From positions 1 through 35,017 of IMG/VR virus record IMGVR_UViG_3300021375_000090: a DNA stretch of 35,017 nt, one strand, 5' to 3'. The notes under the pieces were generated by a model that was given only the letters and a program-made list of their open reading frames with translations, was not told the origin of the DNA and ran no database searches. The position numbers and the translations under genes were made by a program. Origin of the DNA: a virus. Positions 547-26,791 of the stretch are shown here, in pieces (the stretch's first letter is position 1; each line of letters starts with the position of its first letter).

Positions 547-2178
547 ATGGCAAACTTTATTATATCACTAGACTCGTCAACTTATGCAAACGCAGGGGCG
601 GCAGAGCTGGCAATTACAAACGCAGGATTAGCAATAACGAAGACTTATTCTTTCCCACTTACATACGGAGTTTCAGGAACAACAGGCCAAGTCTCAGGAC
701 TAGCAGGAGTAACCGAATCATCTGAAAACGGCGAAGCACTTAACGTTGCACTTGAAGCATTTACTGAAGCAAGTGACGAACAAGATTCTGAGCATTTATC
801 AACTACAGCAATTAACCCTAACTACCAGTATTACTGGCATCCACTAGACGGCACATTTGGTGCAACACAAACTGTCTACTTAATGGATACTGGTTTTGAT
901 CCGTATCACCAAGAGTTTGGCGAAACACCATTAGTAACTGATTTACACAGTTGCCCAGATGCAACTGGTTTTGGTGACACTGACGGTCACGGAACTAAAA
1001 TGGCATCACTTATAATTGGTCAGTCAATTGGTAGTGCTAAAGGTACAACTATACAAAATGTTAAGATGTTCGACGATGCTACAGGTACAATTACAGCAGG
1101 CGATGTTATTGATGCATTAGAAGCAGTATTAATACACCATAGAGCTAACGATGCGTCTAAGCCTAAAGTTGTATTGATGGCTTGGTCTATGACTAAGAAC
1201 GCATTAATTGATGCTAAACTTAACCAGATGTTAGCAGAAAACTTAATGCTAGTTGCAGCGGCAGGTAACGCAGGTTGTGGTGTTGATGTTGATACAATTA
1301 CACCAGGTGGTTTGGATACTATTACAACTGTTGGTTCACACAGCCAAACATTCCATGTATCAACTTTCAGTCAAATGCCATTGATTGATTATGTTGATGA
1401 CGAAACAACTCCAGTTCGTAGAGGTTTAGTACAAAGTGCAGCCAAGATTGATATATTCGCAATTGGTGAAGAAGTATGTGTAGTAGACTTAGCAAACACT
1501 AGTAACTATGTACCAGCTCAGGGAACATCAGTATCATCTGCTATGGTAGCAGGTTGTGCTACGCACTTCATGAACTTATATCCAAGTGCATCAGCAGAAA
1601 CAATTAAATCATACATGGTAACACGTGGTAACGAAATGGCTCGTTTACCTAGATCAACATCTACTGCTGACAACTACCAAACAATTCTTAGTTATGATAA
1701 CTTATCTTACCCAGCAGGTAAGACTGCAGAATACAATAAAGTAAGTTTATCAATACTTTCATTACCGATGACATCAGATGTAACATTTACACAGATTCCA
1801 TCAGGTAGGTTAAAAAACATACAACATGGACAAACAGCAACAGTCGATATTGGTTTACATGCAGATGTAACTAATGTCGCAGTGTTAGACTTTAGTCCTT
1901 TAGCGCCATGGATGGCTTTTGATACAGCAACTGGTATTGTTACAATTACTGCAACTGTTGCAGGTGGCTGTGCAGAAAGTTTAGCACCAGGTGTTTATCA
2001 CTTTGCTGTTAAAGGCACAATGGGTGACAAAGTTTATGTTGAAGAGTATTCAATTGGTGTGTATGCAACTTCAGAAATAGAGTTAAATACATCAACAGAG
2101 TATTACTATAACGATGACGATAGCGATTACGAAGAAGTAATTCAATACTCAGCATCTATTAATAACCAGATCAAATAA
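547..2178 (+). CDS. Subtilisin-like serine protease (S8 family)
   Basis: The 543-aa product carries the subtilase triad in the right order and context: Asp114 in LMDTG, His148 in GHGT, the oxyanion Asn241 in AAGNAG, and Ser328 in GTSVSSAMVAG (compare GTSMAAPHVAG of subtilisins). Residues 1-90 precede the catalytic domain and may be an I9-type inhibitor propeptide or a virion-anchoring domain; this is inference. Residues from about 400 to 543 look beta-rich and end in an acidic Asp/Tyr/Glu tail. No signal peptide is visible, so the protein is probably used in the infected cell or on the particle rather than secreted. A late promoter precedes the gene, a ribosome site GGAG is at 533-536, and a terminator follows at 2197-2227. 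The triad is complete, so the enzyme is probably active. Confidence 0.9.
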   Translation: MANFIISLDSSTYANAGAAELAITNAGLAITKTYSFPLTYGVSGTTGQVSGLAGVTESSENGEALNVALEAFTEASDEQDSEHLSTTAINPNYQYYWHPLDGTFGATQTVYLMDTGFDPYHQEFGETPLVTDLHSCPDATGFGDTDGHGTKMASLIIGQSIGSAKGTTIQNVKMFDDATGTITAGDVIDALEAVLIHHRANDASKPKVVLMAWSMTKNALIDAKLNQMLAENLMLVAAAGNAGCGVDVDTITPGGLDTITTVGSHSQTFHVSTFSQMPLIDYVDDETTPVRRGLVQSAAKIDIFAIGEEVCVVDLANTSNYVPAQGTSVSSAMVAGCATHFMNLYPSASAETIKSYMVTRGNEMARLPRSTSTADNYQTILSYDNLSYPAGKTAEYNKVSLSILSLPMTSDVTFTQIPSGRLKNIQHGQTATVDIGLHADVTNVAVLDFSPLAPWMAFDTATGIVTITATVAGGCAESLAPGVYHFAVKGTMGDKVYVEEYSIGVYATSEIELNTSTEYYYNDDDSDYEEVIQYSASINNQIK

Positions 2179-2227: not shown

Positions 2228-3223
2228 ATGACTATAGAAAACTTACGAGTAGATACAACAACACACAGTCGCGTTTTTAATCCACTAAGCGCCGCTGGTC
2301 AGTGGCTTTGTTCTGTGTTTAAGCATAGATCAATAGGCGACATAGAAGCCTCATATCCCACCTTAGTTGAAATCACTCAAGACTTACCAGATTTAAAATC
2401 TATTACAATGGATAACGAATACGGTGATGCATTAGAGTGGAGTAAACTTGCACCGTTTGTGCGTGTTATGACTATACAAGGTGTATACATTATGGTTAAC
2501 ACCTACGGAATGGCTGAGAATAAGGCAGTAAAAAGTATAGTAGATGCTAGTTGTTTATACAAAGAGCAAGATGCAAGTATAAACATTATCTTTAATATTG
2601 ACGGCATATACGAACAATGTGGTAAAGTATTCTTAGGTGCTGAATGGAATCATATTAAAGAAAACATAATAACTGTAGGTAACAAAGCACACATAAAATT
2701 TTACAAATTTAAGCACAATGCTCATCAACAACCTGCAATAGAACATTTTTGTAGAGCTATAGGTGCTACATTTGAAGTACTAGAAGATCCGTTGTTTGGT
2801 AACAAATGCTTTAGTGTAATATCTAAACAAGGTAAATGGTTATACGATATTCATCCTGTTGGTTCAAATCAACCAACATTGGCACAAACAGCAATAGGAT
2901 GGAACTTATTAAAAACAAAAGTTAGAAGTATTAAAGGAACACCAATCGACGAACTAGAAAAATTACCTGTACCAATAACAGCAAAAGACTTAGACACAGA
3001 TGATATTATTAATATCACTATCAAAGGACATGTTATCAAAGGTTCGGGTATTGCTCAAATATTTAGTTACGCATTATGCGGTGATTGGGATTATTACGAA
3101 GTAGATACAAGTAATGCATACAACCTATCAGTAATGCAAGAACTTGCTAAGTTTGTAAGAATAGATTTATCTACTATAAACATATACAATAATAGTATTA
3201 CTGATATATTAGAAGTTGTTTAA
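2228..3223 (+). CDS. Radical-SAM-like protein lacking the cluster cysteines
   Basis: I place the start at the ATG at 2228 rather than the in-frame TTG at 2213, which lies inside the terminator stem; this gives 331 aa. The pattern of strands and helices resembles a radical SAM barrel: VMTIQGVYIMVNTYG looks like the strand ending in TNG, INIIFNIDG like the strand ending in SIDG, and a later FYKFKHNAHQQ plus IGATFE segment matches the next repeats. However, the CxxxCxxC motif for the 4Fe-4S cluster is absent; the six cysteines are scattered. The protein is therefore at best a degenerate, non-radical member. The fold assignment is from motif rhythm only and is uncertain. No clear ribosome site is visible. 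The 3' end overlaps the convergent PAAR gene by four bases. Confidence 0.45.
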   Translation: MTIENLRVDTTTHSRVFNPLSAAGQWLCSVFKHRSIGDIEASYPTLVEITQDLPDLKSITMDNEYGDALEWSKLAPFVRVMTIQGVYIMVNTYGMAENKAVKSIVDASCLYKEQDASINIIFNIDGIYEQCGKVFLGAEWNHIKENIITVGNKAHIKFYKFKHNAHQQPAIEHFCRAIGATFEVLEDPLFGNKCFSVISKQGKWLYDIHPVGSNQPTLAQTAIGWNLLKTKVRSIKGTPIDELEKLPVPITAKDLDTDDIINITIKGHVIKGSGIAQIFSYALCGDWDYYEVDTSNAYNLSVMQELAKFVRIDLSTINIYNNSITDILEVV

Positions 3224-3489
3224 CTTACTTCAACAGTTGGCGAACCGCTACTAACATTATGTCCACATGTAGCAGTACTTCCTTGTTTAGCAGGAATACC
3301 GCCGTCTGCTAACACTGTAGTTGCGCCATTTGACACTAGTGTAGGTGCAGTATGTGGTGCTTTGCCATGAGGAGCAACCTTATCTCCTATTAAAGAAACT
3401 TTTTTATTATCAGCAAATACTGTTGATGCTCCAGGTCCTAGTATAACACCTTTTGCAGTATCTGTTTTTACTCTTGCTATCTTTGCCAT
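3220..3489 (-). CDS. PAAR-repeat spike-tip protein (gp5.4-like)
   Basis: The 89-aa product has the PAAR pattern: H41 and H46 in PHGKAPHTAP, then a Gly-rich TTVLADGGIPAKQGS stretch, and CGH at 75-77 followed by SSGSPTVEV. In the family, His and Cys residues bind a metal at the tip of the beta-helical spike, and PAAR proteins cap the contractile tail needle (gp5.4 in T4, VgrG in type VI secretion). The length is typical. The ATG at 3489 is preceded with a 5-nt gap by a perfect late promoter element, with no ribosome site between. The gene is the last of the late cluster that also contains the micro-genes at 3498-4077. Confidence 0.9.
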   Translation of the reverse strand: MAKIARVKTDTAKGVILGPGASTVFADNKKVSLIGDKVAPHGKAPHTAPTLVSNGATTVLADGGIPAKQGSTATCGHNVSSGSPTVEVS

Positions 3490-13333: not shown

Positions 13334-13672
13334 CTACGCTATCTCCGTGTTCATTGCAGTACTTGCTGCACCTTGAGCTAAGTCAGATACTGTGTCTGCA
13401 GCTTCTTCGCCGCCATCTGTGCTTACTTCGTCAGGTAATTGATTCTTAGTTTTAATGACTTCTCTGTTTACACTACTAGCATGTCCGCTCTTATCAATTG
13501 CTGCAATAAGTTCGTCTGTGGTAGTAACAAATCCTTGCTTGGCTAGAAGTGCTCTAAATTGTTCAGTAGGAATATCCGTCTCACCTTTTGCTCCTACTTT
13601 TGCAAGTAGATCTTGAACAGTAAGAATTAAATCGGAAAAATATCCCTCTGATATCACTTCTCTAATTAGCAT
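13334..13672 (-). CDS. Putative capsid-internal protein with targeting-like leader (112 aa)
   Basis: The 112-aa product begins MLIREVISE followed by Gly. This matches the (I/L)-x-E/G cut site of the T4 prohead protease and the style of T4 internal-protein leaders (FIAE/A). Residues about 36-75 (TEQFRALLAKQGFVTTTDEL, then a second helix pair) look like a small helical domain, followed by an acidic Ala-rich tail. No known domain is recognised. The gene starts one base after the 435-aa gene and belongs to the same late transcript. Confidence 0.65.
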   Translation of the reverse strand: MLIREVISEGYFSDLILTVQDLLAKVGAKGETDIPTEQFRALLAKQGFVTTTDELIAAIDKSGHASSVNREVIKTKNQLPDEVSTDGGEEAADTVSDLAQGAASTAMNTEIA

Positions 13673-15453: not shown

Positions 15454-15675
15454 CTATAATTTTTGTTTTGCTGAGTATATAATGTAGCACTCACACCCAT
15501 TTTTGTTTACTTTATTGAAAATATTTTTTTGATGCATTACATCACAGAGATGTGCATCACGCTCAGACAGTTCATTTAATTTTAAGCCGCCGAACAATTC
15601 AGCCTGATCATATAGTTGTGTTTCAAACTTGTTAATTAGACTTAAAATATTATCTTTACCTTTTACTGCTTTCAT
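15454..15675 (-). CDS. Uncharacterised protein (73 aa)
   Basis: The 73-aa product begins MKAVKGKDNILSLINKFE and has a helical N-terminal half and two cysteines near the end (NGCECYIIYS). The ATG overlaps the stop of the 235-aa gene as ATGA, which argues for coupled translation. No motif or family is recognised. Confidence 0.65.
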   Translation of the reverse strand: MKAVKGKDNILSLINKFETQLYDQAELFGGLKLNELSERDAHLCDVMHQKNIFNKVNKNGCECYIIYSAKQKL

Positions 15676-16379
15676 ATCTTTTGCTGATGCCTTGACTTTT
15701 TAGGCTTGCCGTATCCGCCTGTTTGCAGAGTAGCCTCGGCATGCATTGCTGCCATATGTTTTTTGTACTTCTTAGTACCTTTTTTATGTGGACTTTTACC
15801 TTCAGGCATAGTATCTGCTTCTTTTAATCTTGCTGAATGTTGCATTGCTGCTTTCTCAGAATCAAATGTACCGTGGTCTTTGCCATTAATTTTTAAATGA
15901 AATTTTGGCTTCATTGAATCACCGGATTTAGTAAGTACAATTTCCTTACCATCGCGATTCATAATCATTGGATTTGCTTTACCTTCATCTATTATTTTTG
16001 GTGTAAACTCTTGCATTACATCTACAATACTGCCAGTACCACTATCGTATTCATTACCTTGTGGGTCTAACACTATCCAAGCATTGTCATCGGCACTTGC
16101 ACCTTCTTCGTAAGCATTTATAACATAGCCATTGCTGAGTTCAATTGGTGTATCACCGTATTCCCATGCACTAATGGCCATCAACACTTCTTGATGTGGT
16201 AACTGAGGAACGTCTGCTTGGCCTCCAAAGTTGCCTGATACAACATCTTCAGTTTTCTTTTTCTTGTTTTTAGAAAAGACACTTGGATTAGGTCTTTTTT
16301 GCATAGCACCCAAAGGAGCTGCAACGGTAGCAATACCACCTGCACTAGTTGTTTCTTGTATAATGTCGTTGATTTTCAT
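15672..16379 (-). CDS. Putative internal protein with targeting-like leader (235 aa)
   Basis: The ATG at 16379 is preferred over a frame to 16427 that would overlap the ParB-like gene; it gives 235 aa. The start MKINDIIQE followed by TTSAGG is one of the clearest examples of the shared leader in this block: basic residue 2, hydrophobic 3, acidic 5, I-I-x-E at 6-9. A globular part follows (SAWEYGDTPIELSNGYVINA and a Gly-rich turn), then a Lys/His-rich tail (SPHKKGTKKYKKHMAAMHAE). The basic tail could bind DNA. A GGTAAATA late-promoter variant is 5 nt before the ATG. Function unknown. Confidence 0.65.
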   Translation of the reverse strand: MKINDIIQETTSAGGIATVAAPLGAMQKRPNPSVFSKNKKKKTEDVVSGNFGGQADVPQLPHQEVLMAISAWEYGDTPIELSNGYVINAYEEGASADDNAWIVLDPQGNEYDSGTGSIVDVMQEFTPKIIDEGKANPMIMNRDGKEIVLTKSGDSMKPKFHLKINGKDHGTFDSEKAAMQHSARLKEADTMPEGKSPHKKGTKKYKKHMAAMHAEATLQTGGYGKPKKSRHQQKI

Positions 16380-16393: not shown

Positions 16394-16942
16394 TTATTTC
16401 TTTTTGCCGCCTTTCATGTTGGCACACCAGTGATACATTTTGCCTCGCTCACCTGAATACTTTTTGGCTTTTGCTCTCAGACTACTTACCGAACCTTTGC
16501 AACTGGCTCCTGCTTTTTTGACTCTGCCTGGGCGACTCTTGCCTTTCACTTTGCCATCAGCAAAGTTTTCGTATGTCTCTTCGTCTCTGGCTTTACTACT
16601 GTAATGTTTTATTAATTCTTCTATAGTAGCATCGACTCTAATTGCTTTAACTTTATCTAAGTCTAATTCTAATGCTACATCATATCTATGATGTCCGTTG
16701 ACAATAAAATTATTTTTGTCTATAATTATAGGTCGTATACTACCGTCATCAAAGCCACGCTTTGCTTTGTCCTTTAATCCTTTTACACGTTGCTTTTGCA
16801 CAGACTTTAAATTAGACACTGATATGTTTCCTAATTTATATGAGAAAGGGCCGTCGTCTAGATCAGGTTGCCTAATTTGAGGCATAATCTTTCGAGGAAA
16901 GTTTTTTTCTTGCTCCGGCCTATCTAACTCTGCAAGTCTCAT
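16394..16942 (-). CDS. ParB/Srx-like protein with conserved basic C-terminus
   Basis: The 182-aa product has a ParB-type core: SIRPIIIDKNNFIVNGHHRY at residues 68-87, where NGHHR corresponds to the DGHHR nucleotide-binding or catalytic box of ParB/sulfiredoxin folds. Members bind CTP or act as nucleases or ADP-ribosyl or phosphoryl enzymes, so function cannot be fixed. The C-terminal part (SRPGRVKKAGASCKGSVSSL then KKYSGERGKMYHWCANMKGG) has two Cys and many basic residues and looks like a separate DNA- or protein-binding element. The N-terminus MRLAEL resembles the leader of its neighbours but lacks I-x-E. The ATG overlaps the preceding stop as TAATG. Confidence 0.75.
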   Translation of the reverse strand: MRLAELDRPEQEKNFPRKIMPQIRQPDLDDGPFSYKLGNISVSNLKSVQKQRVKGLKDKAKRGFDDGSIRPIIIDKNNFIVNGHHRYDVALELDLDKVKAIRVDATIEELIKHYSSKARDEETYENFADGKVKGKSRPGRVKKAGASCKGSVSSLRAKAKKYSGERGKMYHWCANMKGGKKK

Positions 16943-19900
16943 TATCTCATTGATACCTGTACTGCTGGTCCGTTCATTTTGTCACCCCAATCTAATGAAC
17001 CTAATTTAAACTTGTCTAGGTGATTTTTATAATTGTCAACCTGGAATGCTAAACTTTTCTTACCACCAAGTTTTAAGAATAAGAACATATCAAACTGTTT
17101 TGCCTTAAGAATGTTTGCATAACTACTATAAGATATCTCGCCTGCTAATGTACTCGATTCTGCACGATCCATACTAGCATAATTCTTAACTATATATGCT
17201 ATCATAGATTTGTCCCCATTTATAAATGTTTTTTCAAACAATTCTTTTATATAGGCTTGTCCTGCTCCTGCTGCAAGTGTATCTAATTGAGTAGCAATAT
17301 CCAAGAAGTGTGTTCCTGCTCTACTACCTGCGTTACCACTTGGTAAACGTTGTGGTCTATCTTCTGGTGCAATTTTAAACTTGTCGTAAACTGCATCTAA
17401 TTGAGGCTGTCCGTAGTCGGCGTTACTATTTTTAAGTCTGCCACCACCACTTGACTTCTCACCTTTAACTTCAACTTCCACGCCATCAATTTTTAAATCA
17501 CCTACACTAGCAAATGTAATGTTAGGTGCTAACAGTGCAAGACCGACTTCGCCTGGTCCTCTATTAGAGCCTTCAATATTGAGTGCAATGTTAAACATGT
17601 TATCATATAGTTCTGTTATAAATGCTGTACTAACTCCTTCGGCACCTTTTAGCCATTGATCCCATGTTGATGCACCGTCGGCCATTAAAACTTTAGTATC
17701 AACATAGCTCACTTGTCCGTATGTGGAAAGAAAGTTTTCGATGTCGTCAAAATCACCCTTAGTATTCATAATTGCTTTTACGAACTCTGGTAGTACACCT
17801 TTATAACTGTAGTCTGCTTCAGGTGCTGTTTTATCTGGCTTTAAGAAATCTTCAGGGTGTACTCTTTCATGGTTTTCAGCATCTGTTCTCATAAAACGAT
17901 ATACTCGTTGTACGAATGCTGGATTGTCTTTTAATTTATCTATAATAAAATTAAATCTTTCTTTATCTCTGTCTAAGTCATCCTCTGACAATATGCTTTC
18001 TTTAAGTCCTGCTTTTTGTTTAATAGTAGGATGTACTTTGTTTTGCACAAAGCCTTTGAATATAGAACGCAAATCAGTATCTGGTCCTGCACCACTAGCG
18101 GCTTCTCTGAAAGCTCTAATCATACTAGGATCAGGTACTACAAAATATGCTTCCATTTGTGCTTTTAAATCACTAGCAAGTAACGGAACATTTAGTAACT
18201 CTCGTATCTTCTTTTCTGGTGAGTTGTCTGGTACTGCACCCTCTCCCATTGCTGTTCTATAAGAGTTTTTGTTTGTACTAAATCTATCGCCTATTACTTT
18301 ATGCCCTTCACCACTTAACAGTAGGTCCCACATCATTTTGACTACTCCGTCTTTGGATTGTAGTCTTTCTAAAGCACCGGAAAACCATGCAACTTTTTTT
18401 GGTTCCATTGGTCTAGTGCTTTCTTTATTGGAAATTAACTTCAAAGCATATTTTTTAATTTTGTCTAAATCATCCATACTTTGCAATTTATACAAGTCGT
18501 CTGTAGTAAAATTAAAATCTTTTTTACCTTCTACATACTTAACTTTATTACCAGACTTGTTAGGGTGTTCAAAACCTTTGCCTTTCTTTTTCTTGGATAC
18601 TTTTAATGCTTCGTTTATCTTTGTAGCATCTACTTTACTTAACACTGATAATTGTTCTTTTAATGTTAACTGATTAAACTTTGTAAACATGTTATTACTC
18701 TCTTCTATATTACTAAACCTAATATTCATTTCTTGGCTCATGTATTGTCTTTCTGACGCATCAACTTCGTGGTGTGTTCCAATTATGTATGGAGTCTTTT
18801 CTCCTGAAGCAGGAGCTGGATTGAAATCACGTTCTCTGTAAGGCAAGAATCCATACTTCTTACTAAAAGCATCTATCTTTATTTTAGCCTCTACTGTCTG
18901 TTCTTGGTATCTTTCGGCTTTTTGTTTTCTGTGAACTATTAAATCTTTTATTCTTTCTATTTTTTCTGCTTTTGCAGTATCCTCTGCACTTTCATTAGTA
19001 TCAACTCCGCCTGCTTTGTATGCCGATACCATTGATGATATTTCATCCCACTGTACAGGATTGCCACCGTTTTCCTTGTTGTACACTAATGCATTTAGAA
19101 CATCTTGTTTTGCATTATTACTTGTTTCTAAGTTGTTAATCCATCTTGCTAGTTTTACAGCATTAACTCTTGGATTGTCCATGAAGTGACCGAATCCAGT
19201 GAACCACATTTTTTTATAGAGAGGAAAATCATTTTCCGCCATCTCGATTGCTGCTTGATTACTAAAAGTAGATGGGTCATTATCACTGGCATCTGAGCTA
19301 CCTGTTGCACCTAGTTCTTTTAGTTCTTGTTCGTAGTCAGCAACCATTTTAAGTTCGCCCTGGGCATCAATCATTCCTTCATTATAATTGTATAATTCTC
19401 TATATACTTCACTATGTTCATCGCGATCAATAACTTTAAAATCTTCTGCTTTAAACTTTTTACCAGGAGGCGTCTTTATTGGAGCATCTGACATAAGTTT
19501 GTTGCCCATTTCTGTTTGTAGCCAATTGTAGTATGGTACTGGTAAGTACATAATGTCAACCGCGTTGTCATACTTAACAGTAAAGTCCGGTACCGGTGCT
19601 TTTCCTACTTTAACTTTAAATGTACTATTAAATGCATCAGCAAACTTTTTCATGCCGTCATGGTAATTTGACCCGCCTCTCTGTAAAAAAGGCACATACT
19701 GTTTACTTGCTAAAAATTCTTTATAAAGAGAATCAGGTGTAAATCCAAAATCTTTCATTGCTTGTCTAAAGGCACCTATTTGTTGTACTTTAACAGGATT
19801 ACGATTCTTGCCTGTTGCTATAGAACTTAATAGATAACCAAAAGCAGTAAGACTATAATTTCGTGCTCTGTCATTCCAGCTCTCTTCTTCTTCTTTAATA

Positions 19901-21978
19901 ATACTTTCTTCTGCATTCTCTCTTTTAGATCTTGCAAGAGCATTGTATGCTATAGCAAGAGCGTCTATAGCATCAATGTAATGTTGTTTGCTTAATATTG
20001 ACTTGAATGCATCCACTACTTTTTTATCAGTGTGTTCTGGGTCTATTCTGCTAGATGCTCTTTCGTCTTCTTCTGGGTCAATAGCATCTAACTTATTAAC
20101 AAAACGAAATAATGCTTTAATATAGTCTTCTCTAAAAACATTTTCATCATGTCCTGCCAGCATTGTGGCTGCATATCGTATTGTTGTTTTAGCAACCTTG
20201 TCGAAGTTTCTATGGTAACTATCACCACCTGCTATACGAAATTCAATTAATCCGTTGCCATCGTTGTTAGTTGCATCTTTAAAGTTAATGCTACTAAACT
20301 TACCAGCACTAATGCCGTCTTTGAGCATATCCTCTAGTGCTGAAAGAGATTTTTGATCTTTGTAATTAGCACTTAAATTTTGCATGTATTGTTGTATTTC
20401 TTTTACTTGTGACTTAGTATAACTGTTACCATCTCTGTTAAACTGTTGTAACAAATATTTGTCACCAAGTAATAATGCAATCTTTAATTTGTTTACTGGT
20501 TCTACATCGCCCGCCATACTCATTGTAACATGTAAACCAGTAGATCTATTTGTATCTACATTTCTGTCACTCCAATGAGAAAATAAACTTTTCATTTCGG
20601 CAAGCATTTCTGTTGGGGTGTCGTACACTGGCGAAATAATTTCAGCACCCATGCCGTCACCATCGATACTGCTGTCGTCTTCTACTCGCCAGTAATCATT
20701 GTCAACTTGTATACCGCTGTGATAATCTCCTGCTTCGACGTGGTCTGATATACTTGAGTTAACGGCCCAGTCCCGAATCTGATCTGCAACTTCTTCCATG
20801 CTACCTTGGCTGTTACTGTAAAGAAATATGTCTAAGTCGCCGAGTAACGATTGCCAGTTGCCGTTGTATTCTTCGTTACACCAATCATCTTCATCAATGT
20901 TGCTTAATGCTCTATCCCAGGCTTCGTCCCACTGCTCGCCATTGTCTCTGATATCGTCTGCTAACCATTCTAAGTAAGCATCTTCACGTTCAGCCTCAAC
21001 AAATTCTCTGGCCCATGCGTCTTCTTCCCAGTCGCTTCGTTCTTCTATTTCTTCCTGTGCTTGACGATCATCTTGATCTTCTAAGCCCTGTAGTACCATT
21101 TCTTTGTACTCAGTTACATCATCCATGTTAACTTCGTATGAAACATAATTATCTAAATAGTCAGGATCTTCTTTGCGTTCGTCCACTAGCTCTGCTATTA
21201 CATCACTTTCATACTCATAAAACTTGTCTGACTCTTGTAGCCATTCTCTGAATGCTTCACTCACATGATCAACACTTCTGGAGCCTTCTTGATCATATAT
21301 TAGATCTTGTACTCCGTTCCAGTTTTCGCCATATAAGAAATCTTCATCGTCGCTTTCACTTGAAAAACCTTCCCATACTGTTTCTGCTTCAAAACCACAT
21401 CTAATGTTTGCGTTTAATGAATCTTTTGCAACCTTAGGACTATTGAAATTTATTTCAAATATTGGATCACCTTGTTGGATATATTTTTGTGCTCTGATTA
21501 ATCTTTTGATTTTACTTTTAATTTTTTGTTTACGCTTTAGACCTTTGTTGAGATCTGATTTTTCTGTTACTGCTTGTTCTTCGCCTGGTAGTGTGATATC
21601 ATCTTCAGGATCTAATGTATAAAATTCTTTGTTTTTTTGATTTTGTACAACAACTGCATCTTTGTTTAGGCCAGTGTTTACAGGACTCATTACTTTAACA
21701 GTATCGCCTTTTTCATCTTGGTATTCAAAGTCTTGAGCTAACTCTTTTGCTTTTGATATAATTGGTTCTGGGGTTGTTGGCTCTTGGGTATTGCTTTTAT
21801 TTTGCTGGCTGCTAGGACTAACTTGTGGCTTGTTTACACCTGACTTAGGTGGCTTAGATGCCGCTGTTGCTTTAGCAGTTGAGCCTGTTTTTTGTTGTGA
21901 TGTAGGTGTACTAGCACCACTATTCATGCCGTATTCGGTGATTAAAGATCTAATAGTTCGTATATCTTTTGCTTTCAT
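16942..21978 (-). CDS. Giant polyvalent protein: amidoligase-like plus nuclease-like domains
   Basis: The 1678-aa product starts MKAKDIRTIRSLITE (possible cut after Glu15), then a Ser/Thr/Pro/Gln linker to about residue 75. Residues about 190-605 fit an amidoligase (COOH-NH2 ligase, glutamine-synthetase fold): GFEAE with Glu197 and Glu199, VEDDSSIDG around Asp435, EIISP at 446-450, GLHV at 481-484 and IEFR at 578-581. A highly acidic helical insert (about 205-400) splits the domain. The middle is helical and unrecognised. Residues about 1474-1510 fit a PD-(D/E)XK nuclease core: Glu1477 in GPGE, Asp1494 in GDLKIDG, Glu1503 and Lys1505 in VEVEVKG. One polypeptide with such mixed enzymes resembles injected polyvalent phage proteins. 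No ribosome site is obvious. Confidence 0.75.
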   Translation of the reverse strand: MKAKDIRTIRSLITEYGMNSGASTPTSQQKTGSTAKATAASKPPKSGVNKPQVSPSSQQNKSNTQEPTTPEPIISKAKELAQDFEYQDEKGDTVKVMSPVNTGLNKDAVVVQNQKNKEFYTLDPEDDITLPGEEQAVTEKSDLNKGLKRKQKIKSKIKRLIRAQKYIQQGDPIFEINFNSPKVAKDSLNANIRCGFEAETVWEGFSSESDDEDFLYGENWNGVQDLIYDQEGSRSVDHVSEAFREWLQESDKFYEYESDVIAELVDERKEDPDYLDNYVSYEVNMDDVTEYKEMVLQGLEDQDDRQAQEEIEERSDWEEDAWAREFVEAEREDAYLEWLADDIRDNGEQWDEAWDRALSNIDEDDWCNEEYNGNWQSLLGDLDIFLYSNSQGSMEEVADQIRDWAVNSSISDHVEAGDYHSGIQVDNDYWRVEDDSSIDGDGMGAEIISPVYDTPTEMLAEMKSLFSHWSDRNVDTNRSTGLHVTMSMAGDVEPVNKLKIALLLGDKYLLQQFNRDGNSYTKSQVKEIQQYMQNLSANYKDQKSLSALEDMLKDGISAGKFSSINFKDATNNDGNGLIEFRIAGGDSYHRNFDKVAKTTIRYAATMLAGHDENVFREDYIKALFRFVNKLDAIDPEEDERASSRIDPEHTDKKVVDAFKSILSKQHYIDAIDALAIAYNALARSKRENAEESIIKEEEESWNDRARNYSLTAFGYLLSSIATGKNRNPVKVQQIGAFRQAMKDFGFTPDSLYKEFLASKQYVPFLQRGGSNYHDGMKKFADAFNSTFKVKVGKAPVPDFTVKYDNAVDIMYLPVPYYNWLQTEMGNKLMSDAPIKTPPGKKFKAEDFKVIDRDEHSEVYRELYNYNEGMIDAQGELKMVADYEQELKELGATGSSDASDNDPSTFSNQAAIEMAENDFPLYKKMWFTGFGHFMDNPRVNAVKLARWINNLETSNNAKQDVLNALVYNKENGGNPVQWDEISSMVSAYKAGGVDTNESAEDTAKAEKIERIKDLIVHRKQKAERYQEQTVEAKIKIDAFSKKYGFLPYRERDFNPAPASGEKTPYIIGTHHEVDASERQYMSQEMNIRFSNIEESNNMFTKFNQLTLKEQLSVLSKVDATKINEALKVSKKKKGKGFEHPNKSGNKVKYVEGKKDFNFTTDDLYKLQSMDDLDKIKKYALKLISNKESTRPMEPKKVAWFSGALERLQSKDGVVKMMWDLLLSGEGHKVIGDRFSTNKNSYRTAMGEGAVPDNSPEKKIRELLNVPLLASDLKAQMEAYFVVPDPSMIRAFREAASGAGPDTDLRSIFKGFVQNKVHPTIKQKAGLKESILSEDDLDRDKERFNFIIDKLKDNPAFVQRVYRFMRTDAENHERVHPEDFLKPDKTAPEADYSYKGVLPEFVKAIMNTKGDFDDIENFLSTYGQVSYVDTKVLMADGASTWDQWLKGAEGVSTAFITELYDNMFNIALNIEGSNRGPGEVGLALLAPNITFASVGDLKIDGVEVEVKGEKSSGGGRLKNSNADYGQPQLDAVYDKFKIAPEDRPQRLPSGNAGSRAGTHFLDIATQLDTLAAGAGQAYIKELFEKTFINGDKSMIAYIVKNYASMDRAESSTLAGEISYSSYANILKAKQFDMFLFLKLGGKKSLAFQVDNYKNHLDKFKLGSLDWGDKMNGPAVQVSMR

Positions 21979-21989
21979 AATTATCTATT

Positions 21990-22274
21990 CTAACGTCTTT
22001 TGTTAAGAGTCTTCAACCTCTTTGCTGTAGGATTAAATCTTTTAGTTCTACGAGCTTTACGAATCATTCTCTTGCCCATTTTGGCTTTTGTTCTTCTCAG
22101 CGTCATACGCTTTTTGAGATCAATTGGCTTTGCACATTGACTTGGATTAGCAACAACTCTGCCTGCTCGTGGACCGCTTGTACAACGGACAGCACGTTTA
22201 ATCTTGTTGCCCATACGGCGCCAAACCATACGAGCTTCGAGGATTTCTCCCTCTACTATTTCATCAAGTCTCAT
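21990..22274 (-). CDS. Very basic internal/DNA-binding protein (94 aa)
   Basis: I start at the ATG at 22274, which overlaps the previous stop as ATGA, giving 94 aa. The leader MRLDEIVE/G and a second site EILE/A at residues 10-14 both fit the prohead-protease rule (I/L)-x-E. After residue 14 the protein is strongly basic, with a C-terminus made mostly of Lys and Arg (KKRMTLRRTKAKMGKRMIRK). Cys42 and Cys53 (equivalents in VRCTSGPRAG and PSQCAKP) flank a conserved-looking loop. This composition suggests a histone-like capsid-internal protein that neutralises packaged DNA; the role is inferred. Confidence 0.75.
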   Translation of the reverse strand: MRLDEIVEGEILEARMVWRRMGNKIKRAVRCTSGPRAGRVVANPSQCAKPIDLKKRMTLRRTKAKMGKRMIRKARRTKRFNPTAKRLKTLNKRR

Positions 22275-24138: not shown

Positions 24139-24699
24139 TTATGCTTTAAAATCCGATTTATTTATACTAAGAGCGTCTAAGTTTCTGGCTTGTGATTTTG
24201 CTTTTCCTAATGCTGAAGTAAATGTTGTTCCAAGATCTGTTGTGTTTAGACCTGCTGTTGGATTTAATTTCTTCAATATTCTTTGTCTTGTGCTGCCATC
24301 ACCGGGAGTATAATCTTTGACTGCATTCTGGTTACCTACTTGGGCACCTCGTTTTTTCTTAGGCTCCGCTGACAGTTTAACTTGAGAATCAGTATTTGTT
24401 GCACGATCAGATTTCTTTTTAGATTTTTTGTCTTTTGTTTGTTTCTTACCAGTTACATACTCATTGTCTGGGTACATATCTTGTACTGCTGCTTTGATTG
24501 CTGTTCCTGCATTATAATTTGGCTTATTATAATATTGTAAAGCCTTCATAACAACTGAAGCCCTATGGAATTGCATTGCCCACTGATACTTGTTTCCGTT
24601 AGGATCTAAAAACTCGCCATCAAATTCTTGTTGAAGTAATTCAAGTGAATCTTGTGACCCTAGCATTTCACGCTCTGCTATAATTTCATCAATTCTCAT
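24139..24699 (-). CDS. Putative capsid-internal protein, Lys-rich (186 aa)
   Basis: The 186-aa product opens MRIDEIIAE, strikingly close to the T4 internal-protein leader (MKTYQEFIAE). A helical segment follows (SLELLQQEFDGEFLDPNGNK) and then a Lys-rich region (GKKQTKDKKSKKKSDRA) that could contact DNA. The C-terminal part contains RQRILKKLNPTAGLN. No enzyme motif is visible. The ATG overlaps the end of the 268-aa gene by four bases with GGAAG as ribosome site, so it belongs to the transcript that starts at 29872. Confidence 0.7.
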   Translation of the reverse strand: MRIDEIIAEREMLGSQDSLELLQQEFDGEFLDPNGNKYQWAMQFHRASVVMKALQYYNKPNYNAGTAIKAAVQDMYPDNEYVTGKKQTKDKKSKKKSDRATNTDSQVKLSAEPKKKRGAQVGNQNAVKDYTPGDGSTRQRILKKLNPTAGLNTTDLGTTFTSALGKAKSQARNLDALSINKSDFKA

Positions 24700-25502
24700 G
24701 TTTGTTTCTTCCTTCTACCAGCTGCCCAATAACCTGCTATAGCACCAATACCTGTACCTGCTTTTTTAACTGTATCAGGTTTTTCTTTAGCAAGTTTTGT
24801 TAATTTCTTAGCGGCATACCTACCTGCGGCTGCACCAATTGCTGCACCTGCAACTTTTTGTGCAAAACTAGTTCTCGGTACATCATATGCTGGTTCTGTG
24901 CTATACTTCCTATATTTAACCATAGTAGACATAGGTGTAAGTAATTCACTTCCTCTTCCTATGCTACGCATTGTTTGTAATATTTTTGTTACTACTAGTT
25001 GTCTACTTGAATACTTTAAATTACCCCAATCAGTAATAAATCTACGGTATTGTTTATACTTAGAATCTGTAATTTGTAGTTGTGCTTCTAGTCTAAAGAA
25101 GTAACTAACTGCTTCATTTTTTCTATCAGAGCCGTTTGCAATTTTTTTCATAAACATAAAATGCTTTCTAGCATCAAAGTTTATATTTTGTAAAAAAGAA
25201 GTACTTGCTACTCTGTTCTTTAATGTTATTTTATTACTCTTAGGATTTGCAATTGTAAAACATAGCATGTATAAGTCAGTGGCACTAGTTCTAAATGTAG
25301 TATATCCACCATACTGGGAGGTTTGCTTTGCATAATTTGCTGCATAGCCATGTTGTACATCATCCTGTACCATCATGTAAAGTGCAATGGTATTTAAATA
25401 AGTTAGATTAGCAACATCTCTACCAGTGAGCTGACGCATATTGCCAGAAGATCTGTATAATCTACTTTCAGATATTTCTTGATCTATAAATTCTAATTCC
25501 AT
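24696..25502 (-). CDS. Putative internal protein with Gly/Ala C-terminus (268 aa)
   Basis: The 268-aa product starts MELEFIDQEISE followed by Ser, giving an (I/L)-x-E/S site at residues 10-13. Residues 20-200 are helical and basic with aromatic residues. The C-terminus has two Ala/Gly-rich segments (VAGAAIGAAAGRYAA at about 218-232, GTGIGAIAGYWAAG at about 249-262) that look like glycine-zipper membrane insertion or pore motifs. A membrane-active injected protein is a possibility, not shown. The start overlaps the preceding stop as TAATG. Confidence 0.65.
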   Translation of the reverse strand: MELEFIDQEISESRLYRSSGNMRQLTGRDVANLTYLNTIALYMMVQDDVQHGYAANYAKQTSQYGGYTTFRTSATDLYMLCFTIANPKSNKITLKNRVASTSFLQNINFDARKHFMFMKKIANGSDRKNEAVSYFFRLEAQLQITDSKYKQYRRFITDWGNLKYSSRQLVVTKILQTMRSIGRGSELLTPMSTMVKYRKYSTEPAYDVPRTSFAQKVAGAAIGAAAGRYAAKKLTKLAKEKPDTVKKAGTGIGAIAGYWAAGRRKKQT

Positions 25503-26791
25503 TATCCTGTTGGCTTCCCTGTTCCAAAGTTTAATCTACTGAATTCCATTCTGTCAACTAGTTTGAGAGCATTACCAATTCGATCAATAGCAACAAAACC
25601 TTCTCCGCTTGTGGCTTTGAATCCTTCGCCATCTGCAGCAAACGTTTGTGTACTTTGTAATTTTCCTAACTTGTCTATGATAACTAGTTTTGCTTTAATA
25701 AGCATCAAATACAAATCATACACTGCTGTTATTTCTTTAGCATGTTGTTTAATGAATGCTACAGTTTTAACCATGCTATCTGTTTTGGCATCTTTAGTTT
25801 TTTGCATTTTAACTTTATCAATTTCTTTTGTAGACTTATCAATCCACTTTACAACAAATTCTTTTGCTAAACTCTCAGGGGAGCCAAAGTCTCCTGCTCT
25901 AATCTTATTATTCACTGTGGCTTTTAGTTGTTGTAAGAAATCTTTACCTACTAAGTCGTTGCCTTTCTCTAACCAGTTAAATACATCTTTACTAATTTGC
26001 TTAGTGTAAGTGTCAGCGGCTTTGATAGTTGCTAATACTTCTGCTGATTCTTTAGCAGTCATTGTTACTGTACCTGATACATCCTTGATGTTTGCATCTG
26101 TTTGCCAAACACTAGATGTACTGCCTAATCTATTTGAATCGAATCCAAATGTTGCTGTTGTATCTGCTAGTGTTGGTCCGCCTGCGTACTCTGTGTGCCA
26201 CACTATACCTAAATCAGCACTTAACATTTCTTGTGCTAGTTCGCTGTCCTTTGGTAAAGCATAAGCCAGTGTATTAGGCTTAAAATATATTAAGGCTTCT
26301 CCATCATGATTCAATTCTTTGATGTCGCCTTTTTGAAACATCATGTCGCCTTGTGCAACTGTGTCCCAATTTAATTTGCTTAAATGTTTTAAACAATTTT
26401 TTAATTTGATTCGTAAACCACTACCGTCTTTGTCGCCTCGGTCTGCGTGGTAGTTGTCAATGTCTTCATCAGTAAAGTTTAGTTTTGCTTTTCCTGCAAA
26501 CACACCCTTAGTACCTACAAAGAATTTGCCAGTTGCTGGATCTTTACCGGCTACAATTGCTGGTGAACCGTCCCACTTCACAGTCATATCAAATGCACCT
26601 TTTGCTGAGCCTTCTAACATTTGATGTAAACTGTATAAGTAGTCTACTGCTTCTTTGGCTCCTTGGTATCCTTTGTTAAAGATATTATCTTCAAGGTGTT
26701 CCATGTGAGTGTTCTTGCCGTCTGCTTCTAACAACAAGCTCTCATTGATTACTCTAGTTACTAGAGGTTTTGATATCTCTATAAAACGCAT
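25502..26791 (-). CDS. KxDG nucleotidyltransferase/ligase-like protein (429 aa)
   Basis: The 429-aa product has VKWDGSPAIV with Lys72, Asp74 and Gly75, the motif I signature (KxDG) of covalent nucleotidyltransferases such as DNA and RNA ligases. GTKG at 93-96 fits motif Ia, VAQGDMMF at 145-152 motif III and EALIYFKP at 165-172 motif IV or V. The C-terminal half is helical and unassigned. The N-terminus carries INE/S at 15-18 and LLE/A at 20-23, both prohead-protease-like sites. An injected ligase-like enzyme would be unusual. The family may include inactive members, and the later motifs are weak, so the enzymatic call is tentative. The gene starts directly after the 930-aa gene's stop with AGCAGG upstream. 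Confidence 0.55.
   Translation of the reverse strand: MRFIEISKPLVTRVINESLLLEADGKNTHMEHLEDNIFNKGYQGAKEAVDYLYSLHQMLEGSAKGAFDMTVKWDGSPAIVAGKDPATGKFFVGTKGVFAGKAKLNFTDEDIDNYHADRGDKDGSGLRIKLKNCLKHLSKLNWDTVAQGDMMFQKGDIKELNHDGEALIYFKPNTLAYALPKDSELAQEMLSADLGIVWHTEYAGGPTLADTTATFGFDSNRLGSTSSVWQTDANIKDVSGTVTMTAKESAEVLATIKAADTYTKQISKDVFNWLEKGNDLVGKDFLQQLKATVNNKIRAGDFGSPESLAKEFVVKWIDKSTKEIDKVKMQKTKDAKTDSMVKTVAFIKQHAKEITAVYDLYLMLIKAKLVIIDKLGKLQSTQTFAADGEGFKATSGEGFVAIDRIGNALKLVDRMEFSRLNFGTGKPTG

Follow-up and report, generated by a model that had tools for sequence, protein, structure and literature searches.

Phages are already known to carry head-packaged multidomain effectors, the polyvalent proteins, as set out in the main text of Iyer et al. 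(2017, PMC5512222). The T4 protease gp21 cleaves after L/I-X-E, and for IPIII a stretch of 10 residues at the N-terminus is enough for head targeting (PMC9026906). Here we report on a gene for a 1678-residue mosaic protein in a 35-kb viral fragment from IMG/VR (IMGVR_UViG_3300021375_000090, 35,017 nucleotides; "the window" denotes this whole stretch). An initial annotation, made from the sequence, had noticed the open reading frame at 16942-21978 and proposed a capsid-borne "new kind of early-takeover effector". The frame was confirmed and lies on the minus strand; the claim of a new kind overreaches, because head-packaged multidomain effectors are the polyvalent proteins just mentioned. That annotation did not note the strand, nor the mosaic architecture, the swapping of tails or the recurring [ILV]xE motifs. 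The protein is divided as follows.

16942..21978, minus strand: gene of the 1678-residue mosaic protein, a single open frame with an ATG start
21934..21978, minus strand: capsid-targeting-like N-terminus MKAKDIRTIRSLITE/YGM (residues 1-15), with the [ILV]xE conserved in the family
20059..21471, minus strand: glutamine-synthetase-like amidoligase domain (residues 170-640), from the model, structural matches and PF12224 in relatives
20755..21321, minus strand: acidic all-helical insert in that domain (residues ~220-408), from the model secondary structure
18604..20058, minus strand: variable middle (residues 641-1125), ending in a conserved KINE/A motif (E1123)
18235..18519, minus strand: module (residues ~1154-1248) present in the window and absent from relatives L001 and L002 by alignment
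17998..18231, minus strand: conserved anchor module of ~70 residues (residues 1250-1327), ending in an LKE/S motif (E1327)
16945..17982, minus strand: exchangeable PD-(D/E)XK-like tail of type A (residues 1333-1678), with conserved E, D and ExK and weak fold matches
17464..17559, minus strand: catalytic-type motif GPGE...GDLKIDG...VEVK (residues 1474-1505), from sequence and alignments

We put at about 0.52 the probability that this gene encodes an internal-head polyprotein of T4-like phages, a protease-processed effector with exchangeable nuclease tips. We take polyvalent proteins, as presented in that main text, to be the closest described class and the window protein to be a new variant of it. 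Like P1 DdrB and its kind, the protein is very large, joins unlike enzyme domains, is probably packed in the head and injected, and has a ParB-like DNase as neighbour. Disparate domains in one polypeptide, which characterize polyvalent proteins, are present here as the amidoligase and the nuclease-like tail. In contrast to what the main text of PMC5512222 describes, the window family has a swapped tip and prohead-protease-type motifs at its joints. That text, supplements aside, does not name an amidoligase in the parts searched, and it presents ParB-type DNases without accompanying other DNases. Novelty appears to lie in the combination of domains, in a nuclease tip that can be exchanged and in the protease-type motifs of the joints.

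The protein also resembles the T4 internal proteins and Alt, which have a capsid-targeting sequence and are processed by gp21, in that its short basic N-terminus ends in L/I-x-E; moreover, carriers of the window family encode a gp21-type protease and a capsid protein. However, T4 internal proteins are either small or cleaved close to the N-terminus, whereas the window family, presumed to be packaged, has several conserved inter-module sites within a chain of 1500-2200 residues.

Amidoligase domain and PD-(D/E)XK-like tail

Relatives were collected by a profile scan with an amidoligase-domain alignment, which yielded 75 viral loci, mostly on fragmentary contigs. Near full-length relatives of the window protein exist in IMG/VR, and full-length members of the main family range from 1457 to 2221 residues. 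The whole window protein had no match in Pfam, PHROG, NCBIfam or PDB sequence searches. A scan with the amidoligase alignment of 84,980 bacterial and archaeal genomes, one per species, confirmed no relative; the family amidoligase therefore looks phage-specific at that sensitivity. T4-like genes recognized by eye from window translations include a DnaB-like helicase, a primase and a ribonucleotide reductase.

The amidoligase motifs picked out by the initial annotation are present: GFEAE (195-199), D435, EIISP (446-450), GLHV (481-484) and IEFR (578-581). The very acidic insert that it saw splitting them lies between GFEAE and D435 and is predicted to be all helical. Across 24 full-length members, in which columns are on average 28% identical, eight residues never vary (E197, E199, E433, D435, E446, H483, E579 and R581); the motifs therefore exceed chance. 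The order of the invariant residues presumably fits the metal ligands and the phosphate-binding arginine of glutamine synthetase, a mapping that we assume.

An AlphaFold2 model of residues 130-700 (36 sequences; predicted local distance difference test score, pLDDT, 82) showed a glutamine-synthetase fold. Glutamine synthetases were found in all 50 matches listed by VIA-align, the best with Z 11.7 over 198 residues at a root-mean-square deviation of 4.3. Profile searches of the domain against PDB sequences gave chance matches only. The window protein itself scores under the cut-off of PF12224 (Amidoligase_2) and has no Pfam match. Protein AUZ94978.1 of Agrobacterium phage Atu_ph07, 29% identical to window residues 387-634 (E 4e-18), passes that cut-off (30.7 bits vs 22), as do the more distant relatives L083, L085 and L073, and 17/24 full-length family members match PF12224 at E 0.1 or better. 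The comparison refers to the class of glutamine-synthetase-like amidoligases reportedly described by Iyer et al. in 2009. With Amidoligase_2 the window protein shares the fold and the conserved GFExE, D, GxE, GxH and ExR residues; unlike it, the window member has a large helical acidic insert, a sub-threshold Pfam score and a fused nuclease tip. The amidoligase-like reading is thus supported for residues 170-640 by the modelled fold, the relatives over the Pfam cut-off and the conserved putative active-site residues. ATP-dependent amide ligation is the putative activity of the domain.

A 338-kb T4-like phage record encodes a 2845-residue protein (L083:1950-10487) whose amidoligase domain passes the Pfam cut-off (52.8 bits); by eye its N-terminus is NMN-adenylyltransferase-like, and it has a weak HiPIP-like match (E 0.0014).

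The tail motifs hold E1477 in GPGE, D1494 in GDL, and E1503 and K1505 in VEVK. All four are invariant over 17 tails, some of them just 21-25% identical to that of the window, although in a second tail alignment the Asp of L021 lies one column off; with invariance over 17 tails down to 21% identity, the motifs exceed chance. The model of residues 1250-1678 was of middling quality (pLDDT 72). It gave 21 weak rows against solved structures, of which restriction-type nucleases form the main group (7/21): HinP1I (Z 4.4 and 3.9, two entries), HhaI (3.8), NaeI (3.8), I-Ssp6803I (3.1), PvuII (2.5) and HincII (2.1). The tail shares the E...D...ExK core with HinP1I, HhaI and NaeI, its best solved-structure matches. 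It differs from these enzymes in that Z is just 3.8-4.4, sequence similarity to them is absent and no methylase partner was identified. Foldseek against viral models returned two matches only, both uncharacterised proteins of uncultured phages; a profile search of the tail against PDB sequences gave chance matches only, and among isolated phages tblastn found no match to tail types A and B. For the E...D...ExK nuclease proposed by the initial annotation, conservation thus stood firm, while the fold gave weak restriction-enzyme rows and nothing significant in the PDB by Foldseek. Mainly from conservation and weakly from fold, the tail is likely a PD-(D/E)XK domain and a putative nuclease.

A stand-alone tail homologue of 361 residues occurs in viral contigs. 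The stand-alone homologue L100 led to a protein of Flavobacterium phage immuto (25% identity), encoded near terminase, portal and prohead protease genes.

For tail types E, E2 and H, where GPGE is absent, the PD-(D/E)XK-like label would be a guess and was not adopted. The E/E2 tails (L022/L045/L053/L059/L060) have in common GE(I/Y)(M/L)GP.AL ... VDS ... G(I/V)SSK, possibly a divergent nuclease (D...SxK), with no match in any library used. The tetranucleotide AGCT is rarer than expected in the window (41 seen vs 126 expected). Since this under-representation is common to the window, L018, L055, L092 and G004, which carry different tip types, it is uninformative on tip specificity; perhaps a host restriction system is evaded.

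Mosaic architecture and tail exchange

The family follows one module order: N-terminal motif, amidoligase, variable middle, conserved anchor, and then a tail or none. The middle of the window protein is 83% identical to those of L001 and L018 and 25-31% identical to those of L026, L029, L031 and L048; its terminal KINE/A motif is seen in close relatives and in the family consensus. The anchor (consensus GAVPDN...PLLASDLKAQM.AY..PDPSMI..FR...) is kept across tail types and in tail-less members, except in types such as that of L022. By eye, the tails were sorted into nine types (A, B, C, D, E, E2, F, G and H) plus "none".

Compared with the window, L018 is 85% identical in the N-terminus, 88% in the amidoligase, 83% in the middle and 88% in the anchor, whereas its tail is 23% identical; the collapse starts immediately past GLKES/GITES. 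L031 has the reverse pattern, with 51% identity in the amidoligase, 27% in the middle, 100% in the anchor and 93% in the tail. When mapped onto a 29-row tree of amidoligase domains (with the type of the truncated contig L030 assigned from its close relative L031), the tail type changes 18 times. Shuffled labels gave a mean of 19.2 changes, and 26% of shuffles gave 18 or fewer. Because the changes match shuffled labels, tail type appears to retain little, if any, trace of amidoligase ancestry. This exchange signal is strong and independent of the assigned function.

A conserved N-terminal delivery part with an exchangeable C-terminal warhead recalls polymorphic toxins. Unlike in those systems, no cognate immunity gene was found after each tip, downstream genes vary within types B, C and E, and delivery would be by the virion. 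The protein was therefore not filed as a polymorphic toxin. A constant ParB-like neighbour occurs only in type A, and members that have another tip, or none, are also followed by ParB-like genes. That no partner gene is specific to a tip is consistent with a nuclease aimed at foreign DNA or inactive in the head.

Prohead-protease-type motifs and neighbouring genes

An [ILV]xE motif occurs in 40/40 distinct N-termini of the family, which are homologues and not independent, with the E position moving between 7 and 23. At the anchor/tail joint, [IL]xE[SGAWNK] was found in 19/20 members with a tail and 2/6 without, against a background of 9%; the joint is modelled as a linker of low confidence (scores under 50 at model residues 79-88). 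Of 14 lysine runs in the family and neighbouring genes, 13 have an [ILV]xE within the next 30 residues, which is [IV]YE in eleven. A stricter M[KR]...[IL]xE, allowing start choice, was found in the 340-kb carrier G004 in 6/21 genes around the gene and in 12/331 elsewhere; the p value of this enrichment is optimistic because the cluster was chosen for holding the gene.

An unlikely alternative, though the strongest, is that the head-packaged effector is injected whole, with the N-terminal peptide alone removed and the internal [LI]xE motifs being incidental linker features. N4 virion RNA polymerase, packaged unprocessed, offers a multidomain precedent in the main text of PMC5512222, and the motifs beyond the anchor/tail joint are less uniform (19/26 upstream of the anchor). 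However, the excess of the joint motif in tailed members over background, and the recurrence of [IV]YE past lysine runs in neighbouring mosaics, argue for cutting. The neighbours below include several with N-termini of this kind.

16394..16942, minus strand: ParB-like neighbour (PHROG ParB-like, E 5.7e-10)
15672..16379, minus strand: neighbour with N-terminus MKINDIIQE/TTS, by translation from an internal ATG
13334..13672, minus strand: neighbour with N-terminus MLIREVISE/GYF, by translation
21990..22274, minus strand: small basic neighbour with N-terminus MRLDEIVEGEILE/ARM, by translation from an internal ATG
24139..26791, minus strand: three neighbours with N-termini MRIDEIIAE, MELEFIDQEISE/SRLYR and MRFIEISKPLVTRVINE/SLL, by translation

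Relative L008 has PVVE/ARM at the counterpart of the small basic neighbour's N-terminus. The last of the three neighbours (MRFIEISKPLVTRVINE/SLL) matches phrog_455, of unknown function, at E 6.8e-92. In relatives the ParB-like neighbour is a longer mosaic with polylysine and [IV]YE joints.

In these mosaics (L069:13609-16473; L055:13931-14476; L042:10007-11527; L045:13841-14968) the ParB-like domain occurs together with linkers of Gly-rich and polylysine sequence, with [IV]YE joints and with a Cu/Zn superoxide dismutase. The dismutase matches PF00080 at E 4e-44 in L069 and L055 and was recognized by eye in L042 and L045; a phage-head superoxide dismutase is therefore possible. Upstream of the amidoligase gene, L018 and L011 carry a small gene that is methyltransferase-like by eye (MSIELSDTIPGFSNKNYPWDEI...), between two genes with an N-terminal [IL]xE motif. 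By eye, the window also holds a subtilisin-like protease (547-2178, plus strand; HGT...SLI, GTSVSSAMVAG) and a PAAR-like spike-tip protein (3220-3489, minus strand).

Long relatives that are T4-like phages (G004, G005 and G009) encode a gp21-type protease and gp23. With the N-terminal [IL]xE and the same motif in neighbours, these genes lend indirect support to the "capsid-borne" part of the initial annotation. The Atu_ph07 homologue is encoded near the portal gene; by our counting it is gp196, as judged from portal gp198 and core protein gp204. Mass spectrometry detected 131 virion proteins of that phage, most of them encoded in three gene clusters (PMC6102473), and by our protein numbering the homologue falls within coding sequences 170-215, one of these clusters.

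In Atu_ph07 and immuto the homologues are encoded close to genes for portal, terminase and prohead protease, a position that would also suit a head-assembly protein. Its amidoligase would modify or cross-link proteins of the capsid or core and its nuclease would serve in DNA packaging or clean-up, with no role in takeover. We consider this improbable: the tail is freely exchanged or wholly lost and the spread is patchy, which fits an accessory weapon better. Least probable is a late or defence protein acting unpackaged in the infected cell against rival phages or plasmids, for although swapped nuclease tips suit the exclusion of rivals, the N-terminal motif pattern is kept in all 40 distinct N-termini despite its shifting position and the surrounding genes have the same motif.

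Several observations weigh against a protease-processed internal-head polyprotein. The short motif [ILV]xE is frequent in acidic proteins, and 43% of random 34-mers from these proteins contain it by chance; genome-wide, the N-termini of a 340-kb relative show no excess of [IL]xE (72/352 genes vs 19.5% background). In the window fragment, itself short, no capsid or protease gene was identified, and no proteome shows a window-type protein in a virion or cut. The fold match of the tail is weak (best Z 4.4, to HinP1I) and its Foldseek search of the PDB yielded nothing significant. An active nuclease beside phage DNA requires an off-switch, and none was identified; nor was a self-avoided recognition site found, as every 4-mer occurs.

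Proposed mechanism and its meaning

We infer packaging, cleavage, both enzyme activities and their targets as follows. Residues 1-15 would act as a capsid-targeting sequence, drawing the protein into the prohead core, where a gp21-type prohead protease would cleave after [LI]xE and remove the targeting peptide. The same protease would cut the linkers on either side of the anchor, freeing the amidoligase and nuclease pieces in the head, and both would be injected into the new host along with the DNA. There the amidoligase may use ATP to link a carboxylate, on a host protein or some other target, with an amine or an amino acid, while the tip may cleave host or rival DNA. In the head the tip would stay silent, with Mg2+ lacking or the DNA modified. 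Between phages, it would be traded as a cassette at the LxES joint, like the warheads of polymorphic toxins. A T4 head can feasibly hold a nuclease as cargo: staphylococcal nuclease has been packaged there via a targeting sequence and digests the DNA once calcium is added (PMC3012670).

More tentatively, T4-like phages may make capsid polyproteins that are cut at [LI]xE joints into several injected enzymes, with the joints doubling as recombination points that reshuffle the arsenal, above all the nuclease tip. Just as tentatively, the enzymes so delivered might comprise the amidoligase and nuclease here, and the ParB-like DNase and Cu/Zn superoxide dismutase in neighbours.

If the proposed internal-head polyprotein is real, the phage head carries a modular, protease-processed enzyme kit whose nuclease tip is traded independently of the rest, and virion biology would be linked to the logic of polymorphic toxins. 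The locus offers new nucleases of PD-(D/E)XK-like type, which form a family, and an amidoligase of phages with possible host-takeover targets. Very large hypothetical proteins in T4-like and jumbo phages would also gain a probable role.

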